64,000 nucleotides of DNA. Origin: Bacillus sp. 103mf (GTDB taxonomy: Bacteria; Bacillota; Bacilli; Bacillales; Bacillaceae_G). A model generated the notes under the pieces. The model was not told the DNA's origin, searched no databases, and saw nothing but the letters and a program-made list of their open reading frames with translations. Both the position numbers and the translations under genes were made by a program. Positions within the stretch are counted from its first letter, which is position 1, and the number at the start of each line of letters is the position of its first letter. This document shows positions 49,227 to 49,331 of this stretch, piece after piece. The stretch spans positions 186,001 through 250,000 of the forward strand of contig NZ_FPAF01000003.1 in the NCBI RefSeq assembly GCF_900116295.1, written 5' to 3'.

Positions 49227-49331
49227 ATGATGTCACATGGAGACCCAAGCCCGATACCCATATGTTTTACATTTATATTTCATCATGTAGGTAGGAAACG
49301 ACTTGTTCCTCCCTCTCCACAAAATAGATAG
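49227..49331 (+). CDS. Leader peptide upstream of mgtA (34 aa, mgtL-like)
   Basis: An ORF from ATG 49227 to TAG 49331, with the perfect Shine-Dalgarno AAGGAGGTG six bases before it. The peptide begins MMSHGDPSPIPICFTF and ends with RLVPPSPQNR. The early Asp-Pro and alternating prolines resemble the enterobacterial mgtL peptide ([11 protein letters not shown]...), which makes ribosomes unstable or slow at low Mg2+. The VPP pair near the end is a possible stall site. It stops 49 bases before mgtA. Translation is inferred from the ribosome binding site; the link to mgtL is by resemblance only. Confidence 0.6.
   Translation: MMSHGDPSPIPICFTFIFHHVGRKRLVPPSPQNR

Follow-up and report, generated by a model that had tools for sequence, protein, structure and literature searches.

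The window, which denotes here the whole 64,000-nucleotide stretch of Bacillus sp. 103mf DNA that was analysed, carries a gene for a Mg2+-translocating P-type ATPase preceded by a short upstream open reading frame (uORF). An earlier note on this DNA had named the downstream gene mgtA, and its open frame of 908 codons and a score of 1350.7 bits to TIGR01524 bear this out. A contig search with MgtA returns 37 loci, none of them named as B. cereus group; the nearest is that of Neobacillus massiliamazoniensis (L001), whose MgtA protein is 85% identical to that of the window and whose mgtA DNA is 83.9% identical over 2709 nt. The features of the locus are as follows.

46372-48981: gene with five GW stretches, PA14 and GH25, 869 aa, directly upstream of the mgtA leader
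49117..49146, plus strand: intrinsic terminator, a 13-pair stem followed by TTTTTATT, aligned to the L001 terminator 3' of the M-box and apparently retained from an M-box platform
49214..49222, plus strand: Shine-Dalgarno (SD) sequence of the leader, AAGGAGGTG, SD match 9, conserved in L001
49230..49331, plus strand: leader ORF MSHGDPSPIPICFTFIFHHVGRKRLVPPSPQNR by ORF call, its frame open in the window and in L001, with an alternative ATG at 49227
49242..49259, plus strand: DPSPIP codons (codons 5-10), a proposed ribosome-slowing or -releasing stretch, identical in L001, with 4/6 residues shared with E. coli MgtL DPTPLP and acidic/Pro starts as counterparts in other mgtA leaders
49381..52107, plus strand: mgtA, 908 aa, open (TIGR01524, cut-off 610.75 bits; Pfam)

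The GW/PA14/GH25 gene and mgtA are together flanked by a direct repeat of about 200 bp, whose two copies (45863-46061 and 52155-52358) are 78-84% identical in three pieces. The repeat has no match in plasmids, and its copies presumably resemble the dispersed repeats of the B. cereus group.

The leader ORF reads MMSHGDPSPIPICFTFIFHHVGRKRLVPPSPQNR, with ATGs in frame at 49227 and 49230 and a TAG stop at 49329-49331 that leaves 49 nt to the mgtA ATG. The earlier note had described a 34-codon ORF with a perfect SD sequence 49 bases before mgtA. The ORF, the SD sequence and the distance all stand, whereas the length is likelier to be 33 codons, because only ATG 49230 exists in Neobacillus. The 350 nt upstream of mgtA were dinucleotide-shuffled 5000 times, and in none of the shuffles does the best-SD ATG uORF combine an SD match of at least 8 with at least 20 codons. 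Fifteen other genes of the window have 200 nt or more of free DNA before them, and a uORF is called at 5 of these, with an SD match of 4 or 5. The leader peptide has no match in NCBIfam or Pfam. The likeness of its GDPSPIP to the EPDPTPLP of enterobacterial MgtL, proposed in the same note, amounts to a short motif at most: DPSPIP and DPTPLP are identical at four of six positions and similar at all six, and GDPSPIP has one acidic residue, fewer than EPDP or EEPDS. Only these six residues align between the window leader and MgtL (E 0.006 in a single comparison).

The leader of L001, MSLGDPSPIPLCFWFKLNHVGRKRLVPPSLKNS, is identical to that of the window at 24 of 32 aligned residues. Both GDPSPIP and HVGRKRLVPPS are unchanged as peptide, the SD sequence and the frame are kept, and the Pro residues at codons 6, 8, 10, 27 and 28 are the same. 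Nine codons differ in sense and one silently, with no stop and no frameshift, and five of the nine sense changes fall in codons 11-18, between the two unchanged blocks. At this ratio most of the leader peptide is not conserved, and the blocks are, as peptide, as RNA or as both. A check for the kept frame, SD sequence and Asp/Pro codons in relatives, which the earlier note had proposed, finds all of them in L001, its scope being one close relative. The ORF is confirmed as a genuine leader ORF. Leader DNA gives some match at E up to 1 in 278 of 299 genomes related to Neobacillus; the only convincing one is in the Neobacillus genome itself (G001, 3e-75), and the next reaches 1.2e-4 over 33 bases. 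With one convincing match among 299 genomes, the leader is rare in this set, and it may have arrived by transfer. The leader region is found neither in plasmids nor in phages, and searches of viral contigs detect neither MgtA nor the leader pattern.

At the loci examined an M-box riboswitch usually lies upstream of mgtA. It is detected by cmscan at 17 of 20 loci in one set and at 13 of 20 in a second. Among 42 mgtA places in 38 genomes of the class of G001, 37 have an M-box on the same strand at most 2.5 kb upstream and 35 within 500 nt, one coordinate being an estimate. The control genome of Lactococcus lactis has matches to TIGR01524 and to RF00380. In L001 the order is a promoter-like TTGACA-18-TATATT, the M-box (1006-1171, 140.6 bits), a terminator, the leader and mgtA. 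In the window no M-box (RF00380) scores above the gathering score over the whole length, none is recognisable up to E 10 in 48600-49450, and the TTGACA-18-TATATT that precedes the L001 M-box is absent. The 3' end and terminator of the GW/PA14/GH25 gene occupy this place instead of the M-box. From about 49069 on, however, the window DNA aligns with the M-box expression platform of L001, and one pair of the retained terminator has changed on both sides (G-C at 49119/49144 in the window, A-U in L001). Because the platform aligns with L001 while the aptamer and the promoter are replaced by the end of the upstream gene, the M-box aptamer and its upstream promoter appear to have been lost at this locus. 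Two terminators lie upstream of the leader in the window. No sigma-70 promoter match is found in 48950-49450; a weak TATATT lies at 49189-49194 and is preceded, 16 nt upstream, by TTTTCT (8 of 12 positions). A sub-threshold PyrR match in Rfam at 49037-49153 (35.2 bits against 54) was rejected as two terminators that fit a hairpin model. Among other Bacillota with acidic leaders, four loci (L182, L184, L185 and L186) have no M-box in the stretch examined, which suggests that the leader may stand alone.

Genomes with a relative of mgtA number 38 of 398 in the class to which G001 belongs, 25 of 36 in the family of Listeria cornellensis (G002), 2 of 15 in the order of G071, 94 of 105 in the Enterococcus lemanii family and 24 of 299 in the phylum set of Oribacterium parvum (G004). 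The 217 loci that were read are a part of these matches; removal of 25 non-Bacillota loci and 18 with doubtful mgtA starts and addition of the window leave 175, which were thinned to 134. With a fixed caller, an SD-led short uORF is called in 121 of these 134 non-redundant Bacillota upstream regions, the window included, the regions being only partly independent. The caller ranks the 17-residue MgtL first upstream of E. coli mgtA. An acidic/Pro-type start motif is present in 73 of the 121 called uORFs, a number that is neither a clean lower nor a clean upper bound, because the caller takes the strongest SD sequence and sometimes picks an overlapping frame or an upstream stretch (for example L050, L224 and L234). 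The motif was drawn up after the leaders had been inspected and is loose, fitting also 6 of the 10 uORFs called at 24 non-Bacillota mgtA loci. In control genes the same caller finds a uORF in 18 of 62 regions and the motif in none of the 18. In shuffles of the mgtA regions a uORF with an SD match of at least 4 occurs in 1909 of 4020, and 268 of these 1909 bear the motif. The view of the leader as peculiar to this group must be given up, since acidic/Pro leaders precede mgtA in many Bacillota. A literature search, mostly of freely accessible work and for the most part short of full texts, returned no paper that could be recognised as dealing with acidic/Pro leaders of mgtA in Firmicutes.

The starts of these leaders vary around an acidic/Pro or acidic/Ser theme: MEDPSQ, MDHPSPQ, MEHPSPS, MDDSSS, MEDSSHG, MGDDPQ, MSGDDPKS and MQIDDHPEPH, with further acidic starts or stretches such as EEEVEEPDS, DDPAEPE, IDDHPEP and MREDADDAD. 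The named Listeria leaders begin MPQFLEDDPAEPE and other members of the Listeria family MAYRQEEEVEEPDSYY; MDTDGPSS, MVDDGSSS and MLEDGSS come from genomes of the Oribacterium parvum phylum set. Neither kind of start is seen in some others (for example L024, L026, L029 and L079). Lengths and C-terminal ends vary widely. In the Enterococcus-family groups the early acidic/Pro positions are kept and the later codons drift, and in the three Enterococcus-type groups and the IDDHPEP group, but not in the EEPDS group, codons 2-6 have a larger relative share of silent changes than the codons that follow; the codon statistics of the DDPAEPE group are spoiled by an extended start. The Ser codon is AGT in 13 of 13 distinct ORFs at codon 5 of the EDPS group and in 14 of 14 at codon 4 of the DDS group (L051, L154 and relatives). 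Because AGT for Ser hardly varies in these Enterococcus-family groups, a constraint at the RNA level is also possible. At L039, L041, L042, L043 and L045 a second terminator-like site, in addition to the one after the M-box, lies between the leader ORF and mgtA, close to the latter; the one at L040 is weaker. Such a second terminator suggests transcription attenuation by the leader.

Folding of the window leader predicts four further segments, all on the plus strand.

49284..49298, plus strand: segment 2a, anti-anti-SD CAUGUAGGUAGGAAA, able to form a 14-pair helix with 49347-49360
49300..49318, plus strand: segment 2b, pyrimidine-rich, which holds the VPPS codons and can pair with the leader's own ribosome-binding site (RBS)
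49347..49360, plus strand: segment B, the anti-SD, which pairs with 2a or with the mgtA SD sequence
49365..49374, plus strand: segment C, the mgtA SD sequence AAGGAGGAAA, in a 9-pair hairpin with B (49347-49355:49366-49374)

Mutually exclusive 2a:B and B:C stems tied to translation of the uORF are predicted in the window and in L001. When the uORF is shuffled 2000 times, the uORF:anti-SD duplex is equalled 12 times for the window and never for L001, and the two differences in segment B (49350 U/C and 49358 G/A) both preserve the 2a:B pairs. Pairing of the leader RBS with 2b is no better than in shuffles (316 of 2000 in the window, 125 of 2000 in L001) and was not retained; the whole leader fold is no more stable than shuffles (z -0.45). 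The VPP codons, which the earlier note had put forward as a possible second stall point, lie in this segment 2b. When the RNA is masked from the RBS to a given codon, the probability of 2a:B is 0.31-0.56 in the window and 0.82-0.97 in L001 at the sampled positions between codons 1 and 13, and it is zero from codon 15 on. The same mask leaves the SD core unpaired with a probability of 0.09-0.21 in the window, against 0.08 without ribosomes, and of 0.21-0.45 in L001, against 0.00, so that the predicted SD opening is small in the window. With other transcript bounds the values for early, no and late occupancy are 0.28, 0.25 and 0.20 in the window and 0.44, 0.15 and 0.15 in L001. A first scan with a single ribosome gave no clear SD opening. 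The OFF hairpin stays when a single ribosome sits at codons 5-11 with the RBS free, and the ON state is also reached with one ribosome placed near codon 31. The model needs continued initiation with failure or delay at early codons.

Across a wider set of 74 leaders, which are motif-selected and partly related, pairing of the uORF with the spacer exceeds that in uORF shuffles with a p of at most 0.05 in 34. Early occupancy beats none in 45 of 73 leaders (p 0.004), whereas early and late occupancy do not differ across the 73 (32 of 73, p 0.98). For lack of this difference the switch is claimed for the window and L001; some leaders of the Enterococcus lemanii family (for example L051, L052, L139, L148, L153 and L156) are added on the strength of prediction alone. 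Consensus folds of two groups of that family are equalled by 1 of 100 shuffles (13 sequences) and by 0 of 100 (4 sequences), and each group has one pair that is changed on both sides. In the Listeria family, equilibrium folding gives leaders L111 and L122 no switch of this kind, and the consensus fold of 10 leaders does not stand out from column shuffles (75 of 100). Hiding of the SD sequence as a general trait of mgtA was rejected: it is unpaired with a probability below 0.2 in 19 of 100 mgtA starts and in 18 of 127 control starts (p 0.03; p 0.12 for low GC only). Within the window itself, the start of mgtA is equalled in closure by 8 of 31 control starts.

Enterobacteria are familiar for acidic/Pro leaders on which ribosomes fail and thereby sense Mg2+. 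According to the accessible part of PMC11282234, ribosome loss at EPDP of MgtL is favoured in low Mg2+, so that mgtA is transcribed; the N-terminus of MgtL is detected in what is accessible of PMC13245402. The window leader resembles MgtL of E. coli and Salmonella in being a short SD-led ORF before mgtA, in its Asp-Pro-x-Pro-x-Pro and in the proposed switching on of mgtA by ribosome loss at low Mg2+. However, it has 33 residues rather than 17, one early acidic residue and an alignment limited to six residues, and the output differs, being Rho-dependent termination for E. coli MgtL and a predicted anti-SD hairpin here. A parallel in logic is mgtQ of the Salmonella mgtC-mgtB intergenic region, an acidic uORF for which the accessible text of PMC8092293 gives three-way stems that free the mgtB SD sequence and an experimental requirement for Asp2 and Glu5. 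In mgtQ, and by prediction in the window, the anti-SD is taken up by a segment that lies further upstream, which leaves the SD sequence of the transporter gene free; mgtQ, however, is an 8-aa ORF inside an operon and was characterised by experiment. M-boxes upstream of mgtA have been described, as in Listeria (PMC4072509 and PMC12824596, in their accessible parts). The M-box shares with the leader a Mg2+-related control of mgtA, and its terminator precedes the leader in L001 and has a retained counterpart in the window; the leader would be a separate second element, and the aptamer is absent from the window. In M. tuberculosis an M-box is likewise followed by a conserved translated uORF, rv1805A, but it precedes pe20, not mgtA, and the accessible part of PMC12810186 assigns its peptide no role.

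With an ORF and SD sequence established by comparison of sequences, kept in Neobacillus and matched by similar leaders before other Bacillota mgtA genes, at a locus with no recognisable M-box, we lean towards the ORF being an MgtL-like regulatory leader peptide of mgtA, derived from a dual design of M-box and leader and here without its M-box. The folding suggests that without leader translation, or with ribosomes at about codon 15, segment B would pair with the mgtA SD sequence (OFF), and that segment 2a would pair with B (ON) as long as ribosomes sit only on the leader RBS and on codons 1-13. At low Mg2+ ribosomes would slow or fall off at DPSPIP, keep starting and never reach 2a, so that mgtA would be translated; at high Mg2+ they would run through the leader and mgtA would be shut. 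Given the apparent loss of the M-box and promoter, the mgtA mRNA would be left with the leader as its one Mg2+ gauge of a known type. The reading as a leader is favoured by the frame that stays open in L001 despite nine sense changes and by the enrichment of the motif over controls and shuffles; that as a switch is favoured by the 2a:B pairing beyond shuffles, by the pair-preserving substitutions and by the same logic having been found experimentally in Salmonella mgtQ. Both are weakened by the one acidic residue, the excess of sense over silent changes, the ordinary whole fold, the small SD opening in the window, the outcome of the single-ribosome masks, the lack of an advantage of early over late occupancy across leaders, the lack of a sigma-70 match and the conservation in one close relative. 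Of the Mg2+-sensing leader put forward in the earlier note, the conserved frame, SD sequence and Asp/Pro start stand, and an mgtQ-like switch is predicted in addition; the usual layout, though, has an upstream M-box that is missing here.

The apparent loss admits another reading, in which a deletion took the promoter and the M-box and left a leader that is readable but idle, with mgtA transcribed poorly or differently in this strain. The missing M-box, the missing TTGACA-18-TATATT of the L001 type, the failure to find a sigma-70 match in 48950-49450 and the two upstream terminators would all be expected of such a relic. It is nevertheless unlikely: mgtA is open, the leader, terminator and anti-SD are kept with differences from L001 that preserve pairing, acidic leaders with no M-box seen occur at L182, L184, L185 and L186, and the weak TATATT could replace the lost promoter. 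Chance is an extremely unlikely origin of the ORF; a uORF with an SD match of at least 4 is common in shuffled mgtA regions, as the 1909 of 4020 attest, but no window shuffle in 5000 reaches its SD strength and length, and it is conserved in L001.

If the leader is translated, it may instead gauge something other than Mg2+, namely charged tRNA-Pro or EF-P capacity through slow PSPIP and VPP codons, with Mg2+ acting indirectly. The five Pro codons shared with L001 are consistent with this, and Pro codons and EF-P matter in Salmonella leaders (PMC3641672 and PMC6460261, in their accessible parts). However, several Bacillota leaders are acidic without an early Pro (MDDSSS, MREDADDAD) and the early stretch of the window leader has no consecutive Pro, so that a Pro-codon gauge seems quite unlikely. 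A product that acts in trans as a small protein, or translation of the ORF that feeds mgtA by reinitiation, would suit a 33-aa ORF with a near-perfect SD sequence; the changing middle residues, the lack of a family match, the varied lengths and C-terminal ends and the 49-nt gap make either improbable.

A wider proposal is tentative and falls a little short of an even chance. Many Firmicute mgtA mRNAs may carry two Mg2+ gauges in series, an M-box with its terminator and then a fast-evolving acidic/Pro leader, with a second terminator in addition at L039, L041-L043 and L045; the window would have lost the riboswitch and kept the peptide gauge alone, and similar acidic leaders would follow the M-boxes of some other genes, including an mgtC. 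If the leaders work, Mg2+ sensing by the ribosome would reach far beyond its present bounds and would sit on top of a riboswitch; this natural loss of the riboswitch would be a clean case for separating the leader from the M-box. The 73 motif-bearing leaders form a candidate set for tests of intrinsic ribosome destabilisation on Gram-positive ribosomes.

Other riboswitches of the window are those for c-di-AMP (3796-3935, plus strand) and lysine (33507-33694, minus strand) and a T-box (30519-30778, plus strand). Outside mgtA, uORFs beginning MDSRP, MDSSHS, MDDSSS, MDSSSR and MDSDSY lie between an M-box and another gene at L253, L254, L256, L259 and L262, that is, in 5 of the 14 regions with a called main ORF among 18 taken; by Pfam the downstream gene encodes MgtC at L253 and an ABC permease at L254.
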